Shown here: one piece after another, positions 3,850 to 34,232 of the stretch | Layout of the letters: each line of letters starts with the position of its first letter | Position numbering within the stretch: position 1 is the first letter of the stretch | Source of the DNA: a virus | Virus record (IMG/VR): IMGVR_UViG_3300046810_000071 | Coordinates: 1 to 37,869 of that record | Strand: one strand, 5' to 3' | Length of the DNA stretch: 37,869 bases | Notes under the pieces: model-generated | Told to the model about the DNA's origin: nothing | Seen by the model: the letters and a program-made list of their open reading frames with translations, nothing else | Database searches by the model: none | Made by a program: the position numbers and the translations under genes

Positions 3850-4115
3850 TTGGGGTTCCCTCCCGGTTTGCTGCGGCGATGGCTCAGAACTTAGGCGTGG
3901 CCGCTGGCATATGCAATCGACCCTTGCCCCCGTAGAGACCCACGGTGCCGGATCAAGGTTGTAGCTATTTCAAAGGCGTAACGGGGTCTCATCCCTAAGA
4001 TTGACAGGCGAGACCCTTTGGTAACGACGGGGTTACCGAGGATTTGCAGGTTCGAACACTGGTCACCCCGTCAGCTACCGTCCACCAAAAATTTCCTACG
4101 TGTGACCCACCCGAC
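3850..4115. other. Structured leader of the sigma-like gene
   Basis: Noncoding. It holds two hairpins, GGTCTC/GAGACC (3985-3990 with 4010-4015) and GGTAAC/GTTACC (4020-4025 with 4032-4037). Minus strand ACAACCTTGATCC near 3945-3957 is a degenerate relative of the early-promoter motif. No reading frame is convincing. The spacing of hairpins before an isolated regulator gene suggests attenuation or a protein-binding site. Confidence 0.45.
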
Positions 4116-4135
4116 ACCTACTCTTTTCAGTAGGT
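4116..4135 (-). promoter_or_regulatory. Dispersed operator, site 4
   Basis: Complete 7-bp inverted repeat, ACCTACT/AGTAGGT around GAAAAG on the minus strand. It lies 10 bases past the polymerase stop and at the head of the sigma gene leader. Confidence 0.85.
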
Positions 4136-5999: not shown

Positions 6000-6025
6000 G
6001 TGCGCCCCTCTCATGCGAACGGGCC

Positions 6026-6045
6026 ACCCACTCTTTTCAGTAGGC
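6026..6045 (-). promoter_or_regulatory. Dispersed operator, site 5
   Basis: Minus strand GCCTACTGAAAAGAGTGGGT, in the gap between primase-helicase and polymerase, 26 bases before the polymerase GTG. Confidence 0.75.
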
Positions 6046-6080: not shown

Positions 6081-8483
6081 TCAGTCCTGGGCGAAAATGC
6101 CCGGACCCGTTGGCTTCACTTCAGACCCAGCGACTCGAACGCCCACCAGGGCCATCCCCTTAGCGACGCGGACGCGCTGAATGCCCCGCTCTTCCATCGC
6201 GCTGTAAAACAGCTTCCGAGACCAAACCTCTTTGGACTGGAGCCCCTCCGCCTCGCACCATTCGCGGTAAGCGTTGTATGCGTCAGCGCCGTTGATCCGC
6301 GCACTGTCGTCCGCCTCAAGCACGCCCGGGAAGAAACCCGCCAGCGTGTCAGACGTGGCCTTGTACTCATCCGTGGCAGCGCTGATGTACTCCGGATCCT
6401 GCAAGCCGTTGGCGAACCAGGACACCGCCCCGCGAACACACCAGGCCGCAATGCCCTCGGCCTCGGCGAGTAGCTTCCGGTCTAGGTTGTGGTCTCGCTC
6501 GCTGGGGGCAAAAAACCGCTTGAACGGGATCATCTTGACGCGGCGCCAAAGGCCGTCATCCTGGCCGCGAAATTTCGGCTTGTGGTTGGTCGCCAGCATC
6601 AGAAGGAACGTCGGGCGGAACGTGAAGAATTCTTGGCGCAAGAACCGGGCCGCAATCTCGTCTTTACCCGTCACGCGCTTGAGGACAGCCTCAGACATGG
6701 GGCGCCCCGACTCTCCCTCAGACGCCATGACGAGACGCGAACCGCGCAGTGCTGCAAGGTCGTTGGGGATTCCGCCGCTGGCCTTATCCTCGAACGTCGC
6801 AAACGGGGTGGTGGTCGAGATCGTCCGGAACACGGCCGTCAGCGTGTCGGTAAGGACAGACTTGCCGTTCGCGCCCTTGCCCCACAGCACGCAGAAACAC
6901 TGTTCGTCCGTGTAGCCGCTGATTCCGTACCCGAGCATGCGTTGCATGTACGGAACCATCTCGGGCATGTCCGGGAAGATCTCGCCCATGAACGACTCCC
7001 AGCGGGGAGCCTTAGCGTCGGCCCGGTAGTTGATGTCCAGCGCGTACGTCATCATGTCCCGCTTGTCATGCGGGCGGAGCTTGCCGGTGCGGAGTTCCAC
7101 CGTGCCGTTCCGGAAGCTCAGCAGATCAGGGGCGGCATCAAACTTGGCCGCTTCCACGTAGACGCTCGGGACGGAGCGCAGTTCAGTCATCAGCGCGTCA
7201 ATGCGCGTCGTCATAAGGAACGGCTTGGCCTGGTCTAGCTTCCCGGCCAGCGTCAGTGCGGCGCCCATGCGGTGGATCTCCTGGCGTACCAGGGTGCCCG
7301 ACCCGTCACGCTGCCAGACACGGCCGTCCCACACATAGAACCCGAGCCCCGGGGCGAACTTGATACGGCCATCAGTCCACGCCACCAGGGCATGCGCGTT
7401 CATGGCGTCAGACTCGCCGTAGCGCTCGATAAGGCCAGCGATCACACGCGCAGCCTCGGCGCCCTGGTCACGGCTCACAACGTCGGCGCCGGTTGCCTCA
7501 CTGAGTTCCGCCGATACGGTGGCCGCTTCCGCCTCAGCGTGCATCTTGACCGGCGTAGCCGACTTGACAGCGCGGTGAAGTGTAGCGGCGAACCCGGCCG
7601 GGTCGCGCGCACGCCAGTCCGTGAGGTCATCCCCTGCGTTCGGAATGGCCAGCGTGTACACGTCGATACCGTGCTCGGCCAGACCCTCGGCGAGTCGACG
7701 ACTGAACGTCTGCCCCGCTGTGTCGTTGTCCCCGGCCACGATCACCTGAGTGCCGCGCAGACCCTCGGCCAGCTCGGCTATCAGTTCCGGAGAGGACGCC
7801 AGCGAAGCACCCCGGACAGCGACAGCGTCATAGCCGACAGCAGCAGCGGTGAGCCCGTCGCCCGGACCCTCCGTAACCAGGGTGACGCCGTATCCGGCCT
7901 CTCCCCTGAACACGCCGTAGGGCGCCCAGCGCTGTCCCTGGGGGTTGGAAAGCGAGATCCACCGGCCGGGACACTGCCCGGAGAGGTCACGTCCCTGCGC
8001 TCCGCGCGCTACACCATCGAATCCGTTCAGCGGCACCACCAGGCGCGGGAAGCGGGCGAACGATGACGGGATGAACGAGGGGCCGTCCGGCGAAGGGGCC
8101 GCGTAGTGCAGATCGAGCCGTTCGGCGGCATCCAGGGTGAGACCAAACCGAGCCTCGGCGTACGCGCCGTCATAGGTGGGCAGCGAGTCGAGCCACATGC
8201 GCAGGGTGGCAATCGCGCCGATGCTGACAAGCTGCGGACGTTCCTTGGGCACGGTTACGGCGTCACCTTCCACGTTGAACAGATCAGGCCAGCGGAGCCC
8301 AGCGGCCTTGACTACGTCGTCGTTCTTGCACATGGCCCGGCAAGCAAGCCGAACCTTGTGGTCATCCCCGATCCAGATACGCAGCGAGGGGCGAGTGTCG
8401 CCGTGCCCCGGGCAGCGAGCGAGGTAGCCATCGTGGGTTTCGCTGACGTCTTCAAACCGAGCGAGGATGTCTTGCACGTTCAT
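6081..8483 (-). CDS. Primase-helicase (D5-like, SF3 helicase)
   Basis: An 800-residue fusion of primase and helicase. Residues 20-55 form a zinc finger (Cys24, His27, Cys48, Cys52). A TOPRIM-like core follows at about 205-270 (LVTEGPGDGL, then VIVAGDNDTAG). A D5-type middle domain leads to the SF3 helicase, whose Walker A WGKGANGKS falls near residue 535. It would unwind the fork and make primers for the neighbouring polymerase. The ATG at 8483 follows GGAGGGGCGGAACAC. An early-promoter motif lies 37 nt upstream of the start, so transcription of the replication genes may begin here. Length is usual for actinophage versions. Confidence 0.9.
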   Translation of the reverse strand: MNVQDILARFEDVSETHDGYLARCPGHGDTRPSLRIWIGDDHKVRLACRAMCKNDDVVKAAGLRWPDLFNVEGDAVTVPKERPQLVSIGAIATLRMWLDSLPTYDGAYAEARFGLTLDAAERLDLHYAAPSPDGPSFIPSSFARFPRLVVPLNGFDGVARGAQGRDLSGQCPGRWISLSNPQGQRWAPYGVFRGEAGYGVTLVTEGPGDGLTAAAVGYDAVAVRGASLASSPELIAELAEGLRGTQVIVAGDNDTAGQTFSRRLAEGLAEHGIDVYTLAIPNAGDDLTDWRARDPAGFAATLHRAVKSATPVKMHAEAEAATVSAELSEATGADVVSRDQGAEAARVIAGLIERYGESDAMNAHALVAWTDGRIKFAPGLGFYVWDGRVWQRDGSGTLVRQEIHRMGAALTLAGKLDQAKPFLMTTRIDALMTELRSVPSVYVEAAKFDAAPDLLSFRNGTVELRTGKLRPHDKRDMMTYALDINYRADAKAPRWESFMGEIFPDMPEMVPYMQRMLGYGISGYTDEQCFCVLWGKGANGKSVLTDTLTAVFRTISTTTPFATFEDKASGGIPNDLAALRGSRLVMASEGESGRPMSEAVLKRVTGKDEIAARFLRQEFFTFRPTFLLMLATNHKPKFRGQDDGLWRRVKMIPFKRFFAPSERDHNLDRKLLAEAEGIAAWCVRGAVSWFANGLQDPEYISAATDEYKATSDTLAGFFPGVLEADDSARINGADAYNAYREWCEAEGLQSKEVWSRKLFYSAMEERGIQRVRVAKGMALVGVRVAGSEVKPTGPGIFAQD

Positions 8484-8519
8484 GTGTTCCGCCCCTCCGT
8501 GTCTCTACGTGGGGCACTA

Positions 8520-8536
8520 GAGCGCAAGGGTTTCCC
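8520..8536 (-). promoter_or_regulatory. Early-promoter motif, copy 3
   Basis: Minus strand GGGAAACCCTTGCGCTC, in the 91-base gap between the HNH gene and the primase-helicase, about 37 nt before the primase ATG. As at 2223-2239, the motif directly follows an HNH gene. Confidence 0.65.
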
Positions 8537-8574
8537 AGGAGTGGGGTAAGCCAATGTGACCTACCCCACAACCC

Positions 8575-8997: not shown

Positions 8998-9167
8998 AGC
9001 CAGCGAACCTCCGCCCCCCGGGTGATTGCCCCAGACAGCGCGTCGAGATAGCGCCCCCAGTCCGGTCGCTGTTGCACGTCAGCGCTGAGCCAGACAGCGT
9101 CACCAGGACCGAGCGCCCGAATATCCCCCAGTGCCGGACCGGCGTCGGGGCCTAGTCTCACGTTCAC
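8994..9167 (-). CDS. Small hypothetical protein (57 aa)
   Basis: Begins VNVRLGPDAGPALGDIRALG and contains a short GDAVW stretch; no domain is recognised. The start is probably GTG at 9167, with GAAAAGAG seven bases upstream; GTG at 9173 is an alternative. That ribosome site is part of operator site 6, so a protein bound there would sit at the start of the gene. The longer frame to 9296 would run through the terminator at 9202-9237 and is rejected. The stop overlaps the HNH start. Confidence 0.6.
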   Translation of the reverse strand: MNVRLGPDAGPALGDIRALGPGDAVWLSADVQQRPDWGRYLDALSGAITRGAEVRWL

Positions 9168-9169
9168 GC

Positions 9170-9189
9170 ACACACTCTTTTCAGTAGGT
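9170..9189 (-). promoter_or_regulatory. Dispersed operator, site 6
   Basis: Minus strand ACCTACTGAAAAGAGTGTGT, between the terminator at 9202-9237 and the 57-residue gene, overlapping that gene's start region. Confidence 0.75.
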
Positions 9190-10792: not shown

Positions 10793-10904
10793 GCGGATAC
10801 TCCCGGGGTCTGTGATTAGCGCTGAGATAGGAGCGGGGCGGGGACGGGGATTTCTCGGCCCTTTGGCCGGTCCAGCCGTCCGCCGCCCCTCTCTGGTTTA
10901 GCTA
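10793..10904 (-). promoter_or_regulatory. GC-rich structured leader of the RDF gene
   Basis: A long inverted repeat pairs 10835-10847 with 10876-10889 and encloses a GGCC-CTTT-GGCC hairpin at 10857-10868. It lies between early-promoter motif copy 4 and the RDF ATG, with no T-run. It could tune expression of the RDF. Confidence 0.5.
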
Positions 10905-10919
10905 GATCGCAAGGGTTTC
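10905..10919 (-). promoter_or_regulatory. Early-promoter motif, copy 4
   Basis: Minus strand GAAACCCTTGCGATC, abutting the stop codon of the nuclease gene and 112 nt before the RDF ATG. The RDF may therefore have its own promoter. Confidence 0.6.
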
Positions 10920-11759
10920 TTAGCGGCTAGCGCGTCGCTGCGTACCCGTCACCAGGTCATCGCCAGCGGACCAAATCGGATCCCCAAGAACCGTCTTGCT
11001 CACGCGCCGGTCCCACTCGAACGTTTCCCGCAGGTGAAGGAACTGGGCGAACACGTCGGCCTTATCGATCCGCACCGGCTTGAACGCGCAGACGTCCGGG
11101 GTGATGTGCAGCACCACGGCGCCGTCAAAGTCGGGCATGGGCTCAGAGGTACCGTCAGGCGCAATGACCCGGTCAGCGTGCGCGTAGGCGCTCATCTGTA
11201 GGGCCACGTCCGGGTAGGTGTTCTTGCCCGTCTTCCAGTCAGCGACCACGAGCGCAGGCTCACCGGCCGGGTCCGGCTTGCCGTTCTCGTCGAGGCGAAT
11301 GCGCAGGATGCCGTCAAACGATCCGGCGTACGCGTGCGTGTCAGACCAGGCCACATCCTCGGCGCGGACTAGCTCGGGCTGGACAGCGTCAAGGAACTCG
11401 CTGAAGTGCCGCTTGTACGGGTCCATATCGCGGGACACGTAGCCGACTCGCTCGCCCCTGATCATGCGCTCGAACATGTCGTGCGCCTCAGAGCCGATGT
11501 CGGACCGCTCCTTGGTGTACCGGCGGGATGCTCCGCTCACGTACTGGACGGCAGCCGCGCGCCCTCCCCGGTCGAGCATCTGCTGTACGAAATCGATCGA
11601 GTCAACAGCGAGCTCGGCAGCCATCTTCGCGGCCCAGAACGTGAGGAACGGCTTAGGGAGCATGCCGACGATGCTGGTCACGCCGGGCAGCTTCACATCG
11701 GGGTTGTCGGTGTTGAAGTAGAAGCGGGGGCCCTTGCCCTCGGTCGTCTTGATAGCCAC
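10920..11759 (-). CDS. PD-(D/E)XK exonuclease (Cas4/RecB-like)
   Basis: A 279-residue nuclease of the RecB/Cas4 type. Key residues in order: GSEAHDMFE (His93), AGSFDGIL (Asp149), VADWKTGK (Asp174, Lys176), and QMSAYAH (Gln188, Tyr192). It probably degrades or resects DNA ends during phage replication or recombination. The GTG at 11759 is chosen because AAAGGGGCCACA precedes it; an in-frame ATG at 11804 lies inside the early-promoter region. The leader resembles those of the genes at 70 and 13822. A ~107 bp duplicated element lies just upstream. No four-cysteine iron-sulphur cluster of true Cas4 is seen. Confidence 0.83.
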   Translation of the reverse strand: MAIKTTEGKGPRFYFNTDNPDVKLPGVTSIVGMLPKPFLTFWAAKMAAELAVDSIDFVQQMLDRGGRAAAVQYVSGASRRYTKERSDIGSEAHDMFERMIRGERVGYVSRDMDPYKRHFSEFLDAVQPELVRAEDVAWSDTHAYAGSFDGILRIRLDENGKPDPAGEPALVVADWKTGKNTYPDVALQMSAYAHADRVIAPDGTSEPMPDFDGAVVLHITPDVCAFKPVRIDKADVFAQFLHLRETFEWDRRVSKTVLGDPIWSAGDDLVTGTQRRASR

Positions 11760-11796
11760 TGTGGCCCCTTTCGTCGCGGTGCTTACAGCGACTAGG

Positions 11797-11813
11797 GGGC
11801 GCAAGGGTTGCCC
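11797..11813 (-). promoter_or_regulatory. Early-promoter motif, copy 5
   Basis: Minus strand GGGCAACCCTTGCGCCC, the most divergent copy, about 38 nt before the nuclease GTG and directly downstream of the ~107 bp repeat. Confidence 0.6.
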
Positions 11814-11815
11814 GC

Positions 11816-11922
11816 ATGTATTTGTGTACCAGGTGCATGGGATCCCGGTATCCCTAAGAGATGCCTATAGAGATATGTGATTCGGGTACACCAAATACAC
11901 TTCTACACAAACCGCTGGTCAG
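11816..11922. repeat. Duplicated ~107 bp element, copy A
   Basis: Nearly the same as 34065-34171, with only a few differences. It is AT-rich for this genome. It carries inverted arms: GTATTTGTGTACC near the left end against GGGTACACCAAATAC at 11884-11898, with more TGTGTA/TACACA words to the right. The centre reads CCCTAAGAGATGCCTATAGA. No reading frame. In transcription order it lies directly upstream of an early-promoter motif. It may be an activator site, a replication-initiator site or an origin. Confidence 0.8.
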
Positions 11923-11994
11923 GGGCTTGCGCGCTGTTGCTTGGCGCTGACCCAACTACACGCGGCGCTGTGCGGCCGTCTGCGGGCATGGGAA

Positions 11995-13864: not shown

Positions 13865-13892
13865 GTTACGACGCGTCGAGGGGCTCGCACAA
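13863..13892 (-). promoter_or_regulatory. Promoter P2, sigma70-like
   Basis: Minus-strand -35 TTGTGC (13892-13887), 18 bp spacer, -10 TAACGT (13868-13863). Organisation matches P1 at 140-111. Operator site 7 lies just upstream of the -35 box. Confidence 0.6.
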
Positions 13893-13895
13893 CCC

Positions 13896-13915
13896 ACCTA
13901 CTGAAAAGAGTAGGC
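13896..13915 (+). promoter_or_regulatory. Dispersed operator, site 7
   Basis: ACCTACTGAAAAGAGTAGGC, three bases from the -35 box of P2. It and site 1 are the only copies with a recognisable sigma70 promoter next to them. Confidence 0.85.
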
Positions 13916-14528: not shown

Positions 14529-14567
14529 GCCAACTCCCCACCTAGACAACCATCGTCACTAGGTGGG

Positions 14568-14583
14568 GACTGCAAGGGTTTCC
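14568..14583 (-). promoter_or_regulatory. Early-promoter motif, copy 6
   Basis: Minus strand GGAAACCCTTGCAGTC, overlapping the stop of the lysis gene at 14583 and about 40 nt before the dNMP kinase ATG. It marks the border between late lysis genes and early genes. Confidence 0.65.
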
Positions 14584-15957: not shown

Positions 15958-16002
15958 GCCCCGCCGGGCACCTACTCATTTCAGTAGGTCGCCCGACGGG
16001 GC
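15958..16002 (-). terminator. Composite hairpin enclosing operator site 8
   Basis: A 12-bp GC stem (15958-15969 with 15991-16002, one mismatch) is continued inward by the 7-bp operator palindrome, giving about 19 bp of near-continuous pairing around GAAATG. It lies between tail spike and endolysin. No T-run follows, so it may act as a weak terminator, an RNA processing site or an operator held in a cruciform. Confidence 0.65.
15970..15989 (-). promoter_or_regulatory. Dispersed operator, site 8
   Basis: Minus strand ACCTACTGAAATGAGTAGGT, a full-consensus copy, 33 bases before the endolysin ATG and nested in the composite hairpin. Confidence 0.85.
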
Positions 16003-24380: not shown

Positions 24381-24405
24381 ACGGTCACCTTCCTATCTTG
24401 TTCGC

Positions 24406-24425
24406 ACCTACTGAAATGAGTAGGT
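24406..24425 (+). promoter_or_regulatory. Dispersed operator, site 9
   Basis: ACCTACTGAAATGAGTAGGT, full consensus, one base past the tail terminator stop and 25 bases before the major tail protein ATG, inside the late operon. Confidence 0.85.
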
Positions 24426-28503: not shown

Positions 28504-29463
28504 TCAGACGATGTAGCCGTGTTTCTTCAACAACCGAATCTGTAGATCGTGGTCGTTCTCGGCTAGCTTCATGATTTCCTCGGGCATAAGCCGAGGCGTG
28601 CGGGAAATCTCGTAACGCTTCCCGGGTACCTTTTCGAAATCCCGTAGGCGCCTGCCAGCGATACCGCGTCGAGTCGTACCCTCGGTCGTGGCCTGAACCT
28701 TGTGACCGTACGCCGTAGCCGTGCCCATCCCCCGGCGCGCGTTGACCACCTGGCCTATGTCGGCGCCATTGGCGATTGCTTCCGCCCCAGCTTCGCCGAA
28801 CGTCGAGATCCGCTCCGCCGTCGACATCTCAGCGAACATCGCCTCAGGCGACGCAGGCTTAGGCCGGTGAAACTTGGTCACCGGCTCCATCGTGCAATCA
28901 CAGCGCGGGTGCCGCTGAAAGGCTTCACTGATGCCGTACTCAACCCCCGCCAGGAGGATGCAGCGCGAACACGCCGGAGACTCAACAACGCGAATGTAGG
29001 ACGTAACAGCCGGGCGGGCGATCATCCCCGTAAGGTCCGCCTGACGGCCGATGTCGGCAATCTGCGTACGCACCAAGAGATCCAAGAACGCCTGCCCGGA
29101 CGCAAGCGCGTAGACCAGCGACATGCCGCGAGTCAGCGCATTCACGGCCGTCCACGCCGGGTACATCAACAGGTTCGGTAGCGGGCGACCGTCAGCGGCA
29201 ATACCGGCGAACATCTCAGGGACGATGCTCCCCTCGCTGTCGATGTCGCCGAGGATCTGGGCTAGGAACGGGTCGGCCGCTTGCGCTGCCTCGTACTGCC
29301 CGTCTGCGATCAACTCAGCGACTACCGGCACCATCCGGGCCCACGAGTCAACAATGTTGTTCTCGTCGACCCGGGACCAGAAACGCGCCGTGAGGCGAGC
29401 CACTCGACTAGCCAGCGCGCCCCGTACAACCTGATGGGCAACGGCTAGTTGAGTGGCAGCCAT
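28504..29463 (-). CDS. MuF-like minor capsid protein
   Basis: A 319-residue head morphogenesis protein. The conserved MuF-type zinc pattern is present: ESPACSRCILLAGVEYG (Cys165, Cys168) then RHPRCDC (His185, Cys188, Cys190). It follows the portal gene as expected. The ATG at 29463 overlaps the portal stop (TGATG); GTG at 29466 is an alternative. The start lies within operator site 10, and no good ribosome site is seen apart from coupling to portal translation. The C-terminus (RRGIAGRRLRDFEKVPGKRY) is basic. Confidence 0.85.
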   Translation of the reverse strand: MAATQLAVAHQVVRGALASRVARLTARFWSRVDENNIVDSWARMVPVVAELIADGQYEAAQAADPFLAQILGDIDSEGSIVPEMFAGIAADGRPLPNLLMYPAWTAVNALTRGMSLVYALASGQAFLDLLVRTQIADIGRQADLTGMIARPAVTSYIRVVESPACSRCILLAGVEYGISEAFQRHPRCDCTMEPVTKFHRPKPASPEAMFAEMSTAERISTFGEAGAEAIANGADIGQVVNARRGMGTATAYGHKVQATTEGTTRRGIAGRRLRDFEKVPGKRYEISRTPRLMPEEIMKLAENDHDLQIRLLKKHGYIV

Positions 29464-30911
29464 CACGTACTCATTTCAGTAGGTGCCTGCGGGGCGTGCG
29501 TCATCAGCGCAGTAGCTGCCGCGATGGGATCTAGCTGCGCCTCCCGCTCCCGCATCTTGAGCATGTCGACGATTTCGGTAGGCGTAAGGCCGTACTTAAG
29601 CGCGATCCACTCGAAGGGGAATCCGATCTGCTTGAGCTTGAGTAGCGCATCGGCTAGCTGCGAGTGCGATCGTGATTCGGCGTCGGCCCAGAGAACGCGG
29701 CCACCAGCGATAGCGTCCGCCTTAGCGTCGTTGCCCTGCGCAAGCGCAACCAGGCGGAACATTTCGCGTAGTGCCTGCCCAAACCAAATCTGCTTTTCCT
29801 CGACCCGCTTAACCAGGCCGGTTTCGGCAGCTAGCAGAGCGTCGCCGCTAATGTTCGTCATCTTGCCGGAAAGGTAGTGCTGAGGCGTACGCGTCTGCGC
29901 GGCAATGTGGCCTACGGCAACCTCAATAATGTTGCTGTACGCCTCAAGGTTCGCGGCTGTCCACTCGGTAACCTTCACGTCGTCACCGGTGAAGAACATC
30001 ACTCGGTCAACGGCAAAGCGTTCAAGGTCGACCGGACGCGAACCGACGATCTGCCCGTTCTCGCCCAGGATCGGAACTTCCGGAACCTCAGCGCCGAGGA
30101 CGATTCGCTGCGGGAACGACGCGTAATCGCTGGCCGTGAACAATTGCGCCCACAACAGGTTTACCGCATCCTGCATAGCAACCACGCCGGAGACATCCGA
30201 TATGGGATCCTCGGCGAGCATGGGCCGGTTGGGTAGCTCGATCATCGGCACAAGGCCCATGGGGTTTTCCTGCGGATTGGCGTCATCGCCCGTGTCGCGC
30301 AGGTCCCAAACCTTCAGCTCGTCGTCAACCTCCCGCATCTGCGGCGTCTTGCCAGTCAGCGCACCGAGGGTTGTCTGAGTGAACTTCCAGACCTCATCCG
30401 GGAGATACAGGGTCGCGTGCGTCTCACCCCCGTCCTCCCACATCTTCAGTGCCGCGCGCCTACGCCTACGTGAACCAGGCTCATAAGCGATGATGCAATG
30501 CGCGGCATCCTCGAAGGTGACTTCCGGCGTGTCGTCATCGTCCGGGTTACCCCAAACAACGACGAAGCTACGGCCCGAATTCACCGCTCCGAGGAAGCCA
30601 AGCTGCGAGTCAGCGTCCAGTGCGTTGCGCTGCCAGATACGCCACGACTCGTCATCCGCCTCAGTGGAACCAGCGGGCTGGATACCGTTTACCGTCAGTC
30701 GCTCAACCGGCGAGTCTGACGTCACCTGTACCCAGTTGTCAGAGAAGTTCTTGTATCGGTCACCGTGGAACTTGCGGAACTGCTCAGACGCGAACGTTAG
30801 CTTCTGCTCGCCCCGGTAGTAGTCCTTGTTTCGCTGAATGGTCGGGCGCCGGTTCATTAGCTCGGCTTCCAGCGCGCCGACCAGCGATAGAGCCTGCTCA
30901 AGGGTGGCCAC
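29463..30911 (-). CDS. Portal protein (SPP1 gp6 family)
   Basis: A 482-residue portal: RNKDYYRGEQKLTFASEQFR near the start, FSDNWVQVTSDSPVERLTV, a helical stem region, and IAAQTRTPQHYLSGKMTNIS toward the C-terminus, all typical of Phage_prot_Gp6. It forms the 12-fold ring through which DNA is packaged. The GTG at 30911 has GGAGGATAT. The last six residues, PTEMST, are encoded by operator site 10. Confidence 0.9.
   Translation of the reverse strand: MATLEQALSLVGALEAELMNRRPTIQRNKDYYRGEQKLTFASEQFRKFHGDRYKNFSDNWVQVTSDSPVERLTVNGIQPAGSTEADDESWRIWQRNALDADSQLGFLGAVNSGRSFVVVWGNPDDDDTPEVTFEDAAHCIIAYEPGSRRRRRAALKMWEDGGETHATLYLPDEVWKFTQTTLGALTGKTPQMREVDDELKVWDLRDTGDDANPQENPMGLVPMIELPNRPMLAEDPISDVSGVVAMQDAVNLLWAQLFTASDYASFPQRIVLGAEVPEVPILGENGQIVGSRPVDLERFAVDRVMFFTGDDVKVTEWTAANLEAYSNIIEVAVGHIAAQTRTPQHYLSGKMTNISGDALLAAETGLVKRVEEKQIWFGQALREMFRLVALAQGNDAKADAIAGGRVLWADAESRSHSQLADALLKLKQIGFPFEWIALKYGLTPTEIVDMLKMREREAQLDPIAAATALMTHAPQAPTEMST
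29465..29484 (-). promoter_or_regulatory. Dispersed operator, site 10
   Basis: Minus strand ACCTACTGAAATGAGTACGT. It lies wholly within the portal gene's end and is translated there as PTEMST, so coding and binding constraints coincide. Confidence 0.8.
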
Positions 30912-33008: not shown

Positions 33009-33128
33009 GCTGAGTCACCCCCCGTCACTTTTGGTAGTTGATCAAGGTTTTTGAACCGGGCGGATTTCTTAGCGCCCTCCCCCGCGTTCGCCGTCCCCAT
33101 GGTCAAATTAACCCATCCCCACCCAAAA

Positions 33129-33228
33129 CGGACATTGAGGACACTAGGTCAATTCGGACATTGAAGACATGAACCAAATCGGACATTGAGGACAACAAAG
33201 ACTTCAACCAAAACGGACATCAAAGACA
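33129..33228 (+). repeat. Iteron array CGGACATTGARGACA, four copies
   Basis: Copies at 33129-33143, 33155-33169, 33180-33194 and 33214-33228 (the last degenerate, CGGACATCAAAGACA). Start-to-start spacing is 26, 25 and 34. It fills the gap between the HNH gene and TerS, so a terminase-binding (cosB/pac) role is likely. Confidence 0.8.
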
Positions 33229-33600
33229 TCAAGCATCACGATCGTTCCAACCACCAGGCTGCTCGCGTGCAGTGATGCGAGAGTGATGCGCCTTAGTCAT
33301 CGACTGTAGGTTCGCCCAGTCATGGCCACGTGGACCAAGGGGGCCGAGCCCATCAACATGGTTCACCTCAGTAGCCACGGGTCGCAGCATGGGAGACAGC
33401 ACAATGCACTCAGCGCACTCGCAGTAGGGATTGGCTCTCAGATAGGCCAGCCTGGTACGTCGCCATGCACTGTCATAGGGGTTACGCCTAGACGCACGCC
33501 TGAGCACCTGGGCACGCTCCTGACAGCCCTTACAGCGCCCACCCTCGGTCAGCTCAGGGCAACCAGGTGTGGAGCAAACACTCATAGCGCGTCTCGCCAT
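33229..33600 (-). CDS. Packaging-associated HNH endonuclease (123 aa)
   Basis: Zinc cysteines at the N-terminus (CSTPGC, CKGC) and an HNH core: YCECAEC, VNHVDGLGP, WANLQSMTKAHHSRIT. HNH proteins next to TerS assist cos cleavage in many phages, such as HK97 gp74. Unlike the other two HNH genes here, this one belongs to the packaging module. The ATG at 33600 has GGAGCATGCC; the GGAG is formed by the end of operator site 11. Confidence 0.87.
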   Translation of the reverse strand: MARRAMSVCSTPGCPELTEGGRCKGCQERAQVLRRASRRNPYDSAWRRTRLAYLRANPYCECAECIVLSPMLRPVATEVNHVDGLGPLGPRGHDWANLQSMTKAHHSRITAREQPGGWNDRDA

Positions 33601-33607
33601 GGCATGC

Positions 33608-33627
33608 TCCTACTCTTTTCAGTATGT
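33608..33627 (-). promoter_or_regulatory. Dispersed operator, site 11
   Basis: Minus strand ACATACTGAAAAGAGTAGGA. It touches the 3' end of the tRNA-Leu gene and supplies the Shine-Dalgarno of the HNH gene. Confidence 0.78.
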
Positions 33628-33707
33628 GCCCGCTGAGGGATTCGAACCCCCACGCCTTACGGCAACGCGTTCTAAGCGCGTCGTGTCTCCCATTCCACCA
33701 AGCAGGC
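33627..33707 (-). tRNA. tRNA-Leu (UAG)
   Basis: Minus strand, 81 nt, type II with a long variable arm. Acceptor GCCTGCT/AGCGGGC pairs fully; anticodon stem ACGCG/CGCGT encloses CTTAGAA, so the anticodon is UAG, reading CUA. Variable arm stem GCC/GGC; T loop TTCGAAT. Discriminator A; CCA is not encoded. CUA is rare in Streptomyces, and several late genes here use CTA (for example codon 4 of the tail tube gene). Confidence 0.9.
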
Positions 33708-33815
33708 TTGAGGGCTACTCGCAGCGCACTTCACTGGTGACTAGCCAGTTAGTTTGAGCCGGTTTCACCCAGGGTGCGTATCGTCGACCGGTCAAGGTCT
33801 ATTGTCGGCACCTAG

Positions 33816-33888
33816 CTGGTACGGCAGGAATCGAACCTGCGCACGTTGGGTCGCGAACCCCTGCTCTACCTGTCTGAGCTACGTACCA
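33816..33888 (-). tRNA. tRNA or degenerate tRNA, anticodon unclear (CGC?)
   Basis: Minus strand, 73 nt. The acceptor TGGTACG/CGTACCA, D arm GCTC/GAGC and T arm GCAGG/CCTGC with loop TTCGATT are sound. The anticodon arm is one base short: GGGG-TTCGCGA-CCC leaves only 3-4 pairs. Read conventionally the anticodon would be CGC (Ala), but the irregular stem makes identity uncertain. Confidence 0.62.
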
Positions 33889-34016
33889 AGGATTGCCCCA
33901 GTGCTCAACCATGGGAGAGAGTCATGGGAGCGACCGGGGCAAGTCGAGAGGGGTTAGTCCGCAGACCGCCGTTACGTTGGTTGTGTATGCGCGGGAACTA
34001 ACCCCTACCTATATAG

Positions 34017-34033
34017 GATCGCAAGGGTTTCCC
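34017..34033 (-). promoter_or_regulatory. Early-promoter motif, copy 7
   Basis: Minus strand GGGAAACCCTTGCGATC, identical to copy 1, 129 nt above the first tRNA and the only copy above the late region. Confidence 0.65.
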
Positions 34034-34064
34034 GGTGGTACAGCGCGAGGGGCGGCACGGCCGG

Positions 34065-34171
34065 ATGTATTTGTGTACCAGGTGCATTGAGTTCCGGTAT
34101 CCCTAAGAGATGTCTATAGAGATATGTGATTCGGGTACACCAAATACACTTCTACACAAACCCCTGGTCAG
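34065..34171. repeat. Duplicated ~107 bp element, copy B
   Basis: Matches 11816-11922 almost throughout, in the same orientation; weaker similarity continues to about 34192. It contains TGTATTTGTGTACC, the central CTATAGAGATATGTGATTCG and GGTACACCAAATACACTTCT. Like copy A it lies upstream of an early-promoter motif. Confidence 0.8.
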
Positions 34172-34232
34172 AGCCTCGGTCGCTGTTCTTGGATCTTGAG
34201 GCAGCTACACGCCCCCGGGCCGCTGAAACACG

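Follow-up and report, generated by a model that had tools for sequence, protein, structure and literature searches.

The DNA analyzed here, referred to below as the window, comprises the 37,869 nucleotides of an IMG/VR virus record and corresponds, judging from its gene matches, to a phiC31-like Streptomyces phage with most of its genes on the − strand. Both ends of the record (positions 1 and 37869) lie inside the early region, which makes the record a circular permutation of the phiC31 arrangement, and some early genes may be missing at the junction of these ends. Two nearly identical intergenic elements occupy distant places on this map. Copy A (11816-11922) is situated upstream of the gp1 exonuclease gene (10920..11804, − strand), the first gene downstream of it, while copy B (34065-34171) separates the integrase block from the tRNA genes. 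The latter encode tRNA-Leu (tag, 33626-33707) and tRNA-Ala (cgc, 33815-33888), both on the − strand and downstream of copy B, and tRNA genes follow copy B also in phiC31, Rowa, TG1 and others. The protein proposed below as initiator is a gp9a-like primase-helicase of 800 aa (6081..8483, − strand) that contains Toprim, D5_N and DUF5906 domains and a C-terminal winged helix of the Pox_D5 type. The wing hairpin of this domain (codons 769-785; 6129..6179, − strand) holds residues R772 (6168-6170) and M777 (6153-6155).

The first-pass annotation had described a duplicated noncoding element of about 107 bp, and this description is borne out by our analyses. The two copies share 101 of 107 positions in an ungapped alignment, neither overlaps a plausible gene, and the genes flanking them lie on the − strand. 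Similarity reaches 152 nt at 86–88% (E = 2.3e-49), so that the full duplicated extents, both assigned to the − strand, are 11812..11963 for copy A, whose architecture and place recur in relatives, and 34061..34212 for copy B, with a phiC31 counterpart at ∼40.4 kb. A sequence search of the whole record yielded no third copy. The inverted arms reported earlier as GTATTTGTGTACC and GGTACACCAAATAC are real, yet they are better described as iterons. In copy A, the promoter-side array (11817..11837, + strand) consists of TGTA at 11817 and 11825 and TGCA at 11834, and the opposite array (11887..11907, − strand) of TACA at 11887, 11896 and 11904, which reads TGTA on the − strand. Copy B repeats this layout, with TGTA at 34066 and 34074 and TGCA at 34083 (34066..34086, + strand) facing TACA at 34136, 34145 and 34153 (34136..34156, − strand). 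There are thus three iterons per arm in the window, spaced 8 and then 9 bp apart toward the core in each arm of both copies, and in copy A the arms mirror each other around a core of 49 bp (11838..11886, without strand). This core, a candidate melting region, holds CTATAG and CTTAGGG blocks and includes the conserved CTATAGnnnnTCTTAGGG block on the sense strand. The cores of the window are 50–55% AT and rank within the top 2.4% (copy A) and the top 0.5% (copy B) of the window in AT content; in 47 relatives the core averages 53.6% AT versus 36.8% for their records. GC skew gives no pointer to an origin.

Both copies were also said to lie upstream of an early-promoter motif, and a AACCCTTGCG-type motif indeed accompanies each of them, abutting copy A and standing ∼30 bp from copy B, the copies being upstream when read along the − strand genes. 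Beside copy A the motif reads GGCAACCCTTGCGCC on the − strand (11799..11814; motif family D4/D8, phiC31 counterpart D3/D6), and downstream of copy B it reads GGGAAACCCTTGCGATCC on the same strand (34018..34035). In the window as in phiC31, the elements are flanked by the early-promoter-like motif on the gene side and by a terminator-like hairpin on the other. The wider family of this motif, GATCGCAAGGGTTTCCC (AACCCTTGCGATC on the gene strand), occurs in the window at 2212-2240, 2939-2967, 8509-8537, 10894-10922, 14562-14583 and 34006-34034, and has as phiC31 counterpart the GGGTTGCCGACTCCCTTAC family; only two of the window copies adjoin the duplicated elements.

The locus upstream of the exonuclease gene was compared among ∼30 IMG/VR loci together with phiC31 and Rowa, and then among ∼100 distinct loci. 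Most of them contain, at the same place, an AT-richer core bracketed by short repeats in two inverted arms, an architecture common to phages of Streptomyces, Arthrobacter, Curtobacterium and Microbacterium, with differing iteron letters. The iteron sequence is common to a genome and varies between genomes (TGTA, TGACG, TGCA, GTGTC, GGGAC), the repeats observed across loci including TGTAGAAG, GTGACGAA, ATGACG, GAGTGTCG, TGCAG and TGGGACGG, among others. Among the loci examined, a recognizable element upstream of the exonuclease gene was not found in G011, L226, L228 and others. When each genome was queried with its own copy A, one outstanding match appeared downstream of the integrase gene (window 112, next best 16; phiC31 62.5, next best 17.5; Rowa 59.8, phiBT1 67.9, Lilbooboo 77.5, TG1 77, AbbeyMikolon 64.6, Attoomi 55, Yang 58 and Honk 84), as was also the case in most long IMG/VR records. 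A second copy was not found in a few fragments, such records being mostly shorter or partial. Elements measure ∼90–107 bp, nearly all relatives of sufficient length for a judgement have two copies, and the iteron type of copy B is that of copy A within each genome. The phiC31 pair was recovered as well by a de novo repeat search, as a 120-nt repeat with 76% identity. A strict repeat scan, which misses the imperfect arrays of the window, found both copies in G001, G003, G006, G018, L266 and L272; shuffled sequence gave hardly any hits, and in G011 the scan detected one other cluster at ∼0.9 kb. In two phages, of Arthrobacter and Microbacterium, copy B appears inverted relative to copy A (Yang, ∼17947; Honk, ∼22873).

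The recent duplication proposed earlier for this element is wrong, as both copies are present in phiC31 and in most relatives. Nor is the element missing or freely diverged in close relatives, since its architecture is kept and the iteron letters change with gp9a. A distant blastn search of the element against phages returned Rowa alone (E 0.5); this nearly blank result is due to the divergence of the iterons, so that the kinship of the elements is visible only by position and architecture. Judging from these sequence comparisons, the pair is of ancient date and keeps its positions throughout the phage group.

In the alignment of gp9a C-termini, phages with TGTA arms display one wing sequence and phages with TGACG arms another. 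We describe this linkage through a scan of 1803 alignment columns from gp9a, the exonuclease, the RDF and the polymerase in 68 phages, with iteron labels assigned by a DNA-only rule and columns ranked by their partial correlation with label identity, controlled for the overall distances of all four proteins. The top four columns all fell in the gp9a C-terminus, namely R772 (partial r 0.77), M777 (0.71), K708 (0.41) and V771 (0.39), values that should be read as descriptive since the sequences are related and the motif classes were defined once the data had been seen, the partial Mantel statistic falling short of a full phylogenetic model. Hand-checked labels led to the same top columns. Residue 772 is R in all 25 phages with TGT/TGC-type iterons and K in 39 of the 43 with TGA-type iterons, while residue 777 agrees with the iteron class in 67 of 68 phages and even with its finer divisions, M occurring with TGTA, Q with GTGTC, N with TGCA and I or V with TGAC. 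On the tree of the other sequences the iteron class changes ∼10 times, versus a shuffled mean of 20.7. Exceptions to the code are L253 (R772 and I777 with GTGTC), SpecialK (TGACG with R772 and N777) and IAmGroot, L266 and L272 (K772/Q777 with TGAC). Four phages outside the scan, Heather, RemusLoopin, Snek and CallinAllBarbz, fit the code, with the reservation that the first two resemble L243, already in the set, and that the Heather iteron was seen before its C-terminus was read. Taken at the sequence level, the iteron repeats changing in step with two gp9a residues suggest how this protein might recognize its origin. The Dubu-like phages (Dubu itself, L268, L258, L260 and L263) have an unusual wing residue at position 772 (D, N or P), and no iteron element of the common type could be recognized upstream of their exonuclease genes; their iteron may be of another kind.

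A model of the last 141 residues of gp9a, computed with rows from the window and IMG/VR, has a mean pLDDT of 79 that rises to ∼90 over the winged helix. In this model R772 and M777 map to the two strands that form the wing hairpin. Among known structures the domain came closest to RFX domains (Z 9.2–9.5), after which ranked 1ka8, the origin-binding domain of phage P4 (Z 8.3, rmsd 2.5, 74 residues aligned), and the winged helix of ASFV C962R. With Foldseek by itself, the modelled domain had no match at E < 0.001 and, given these weak E-values, the fold match counts as supportive, not decisive. By sequence, the best PDB match to gp9a was 7ola (with 7om0), titled 'DNA primase'. The RFX wing contacts the DNA major groove (PMC2533330), which fits the wing position of the covarying gp9a residues. 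RFX proteins are eukaryotic transcription factors, and their likeness to the gp9a domain concerns only the fold and possibly the binding mode.

Taken together, these data make it most likely that copies A and B are phage replication origins whose iterons are presumably bound by gp9a and which are organized like those of PICI/SaPI elements and of P4. Among the three options offered by the first-pass annotation, that of an origin is the one favored by the architecture, the conservation and the covariation with the DNA-binding domain of gp9a, while no evidence was found for that of a recombination site. According to the mechanism we propose, the C-terminal winged helix of gp9a, a D5-type protein, would bind the inward-facing iteron arrays, reading part of the iteron via its wing, and one helicase assembly would load on each array. 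Melting of the AT-richer core enclosed by the arrays would follow, and gp9a would unwind the DNA and prime it for the family-A DNA polymerase of the phage, both copies presumably firing. As one of the putative origins lies upstream of gp1, the first early gene, and the other downstream of the integrase gene, the pair brackets the early region. A further-reaching proposal, which we regard as plausible but still tentative, is that of a paired-origin replicon, with both origins read by the wing of the primase-helicase, two wing positions largely setting the iteron, and ∼10 joint switches of specificity by origin and initiator, in which either the two origins would allow copying of the early region from both sides or one of them would act as a crr-like obligatory partner site.

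The origins of PICIs consist of two iteron sets flanking an AT-rich region (PMC6092414), and the PICI/SaPI origin is recognized by the C-terminal domain of its initiator, a D5-family helicase (PMC6092414, PMC7581432). Copies A and B resemble PICI origins in their organization into two arrays and an AT-rich core, and SaPI Rep, Cch2 (PMC7581432) and P4 alpha show the same organization as gp9a at the protein level. A cognate D5-family initiator with a C-terminus matching the iterons is indicated here by covariation and fold. In contrast, the PICI/SaPI location of the origin immediately 3′ of the initiator gene applies to neither copy, gp9a being encoded elsewhere. Unlike those elements, the phages considered here are complete temperate phages of Actinobacteria with two copies per genome and a putative initiator that includes a Toprim primase domain. 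As for P4 alpha, the likeness resides in domain content and fold, gp9a combining primase, helicase and a predicted origin-binding winged helix in one protein. Replication of P4 needs two separated cis sites, ori and crr; likewise, two separated sites with the same iterons occur in the window and in most of its long relatives. In contrast to the P4 sites, copies A and B are almost the same in sequence and enclose the early region, and both iteron sequences and layout differ from those of P4.

Origin function and control of the adjoining early promoters may coexist. Binding of an initiator to the iterons would not in itself prove an origin, since the arrays could be operators by which the initiator is autoregulated. 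It has to be considered accordingly whether the arrays are nothing but operators through which gp9a or another early protein controls the two adjoining early promoters, with no replication start. Initiators often autoregulate, and both copies, in phiC31 as in the window, have a terminator-like hairpin on one side and an early-promoter-like motif on the other, which would suit such a role; we nevertheless deem it unlikely, given that the promoter motif mostly occurs without an adjoining element in either phage, that the protein tracked by the iterons, a primase-helicase, has an origin-binding domain like that of P4, and that the layout is the one described for PICI origins. Far less probable still is that the immunity repressor c has its operators in these elements. 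The repressor gene does lie near copy A, and the repressor of phiC31 is active at numerous operators close to early promoters; against this, a separate family of palindromes fits the role, with CCTACTCACGTGAGTAGG at >10 sites in phiC31 and CCTACTGAAAWGAGTAGG at ∼10 sites in the window, and its half-site is the same in both phages though their iterons differ. Moreover, repressor columns do not follow the iteron type: in 56 of the taxa scanned above the best repressor column reached 0.21 and the whole distance −0.05, versus 1.00 for the best gp9a column.

The complementarity of the arms, present twice in most genomes, could alternatively reflect a hairpin in RNA or single-stranded DNA, that is, a structured RNA or a structure-dependent site. 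A search of Rfam yielded no family match beyond tRNA. Across 47 elements with two iterons per arm, the left arm matches the right one at 97% of the iteron positions versus 70% of the spacer positions, and since arm pairing is kept more at iterons than at spacers, protein sites are favored over a hairpin; the repeats within each arm and their link to a DNA-binding wing point in the same direction and leave this explanation very improbable. Similarly slight is the probability that the elements are attachment or resolution sites for recombination between the two copies. Copy B lies downstream of the integrase gene and the copies form direct repeats in the window; nonetheless, the attP of phiBT1 is annotated upstream of int while its copy B lies downstream, and the inverted copy B of Yang and Honk would change the outcome of recombination. 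As candidates for the attP of a serine integrase, a site of ∼50 bp usually located by the int start, the elements were rejected, for they measure ∼90–107 bp and are duplicated, with one copy far from int and the other beyond its 3′ end.

Interpreted as replication origins, the two copies would represent the PICI/P4 origin type in complete temperate phages, with two conserved copies and a visible specificity code, which appears to be new. phiC31, from which a widely used integrase derives, is among the best-known phages of Streptomyces; in the literature searched, where subscription papers were thinly covered, we found no description of its replication origin. If this interpretation is true, two origins can be placed in phiC31 and its relatives, and the PICI/P4 origin type extends to temperate phages of Actinobacteria. 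It would also provide a natural series of initiators and origins for a direct test of the recognition code of self-loading helicases, and would explain how an intergenic sequence can be near-identical within a genome yet different between genomes.

The conserved inverted repeats (CIR) of phiC31, which are repressor operators, are likewise short inverted repeats near early promoters of the same phages. The CIR-like family occupies separate sites and differs from copies A and B in sequence, size and number. As CIR, the copies themselves were discarded, the CCTACT-type palindrome being absent from them and their arms being TGTA or TGACG iterons. In the window, this family is represented by near-palindromes of the form CCTACT-centre-AGTAGG, ACCTACTGAAAWGAGTAGGT, found at gene boundaries in both orientations (139-162, 375-403, 1797-1820, 4106-4135, 6016-6045 and 9160-9189, with further sites at 13892-13915, 15960-15989, 24402-24425, 29455-29484 and 33598-33627). 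Their half-site is that of the phiC31 CCTACTCACGTGAGTAGG family, while the centre differs, and this family is likely the repressor operator set in both phiC31 and the window. A further group of four degenerate direct repeats of ∼24 nt around CGGACATTGAGGACA, spaced 25–34 bp apart, was observed at 33120-33228, between the gene for the small terminase subunit and the HNH gene region, where a packaging site is possible.
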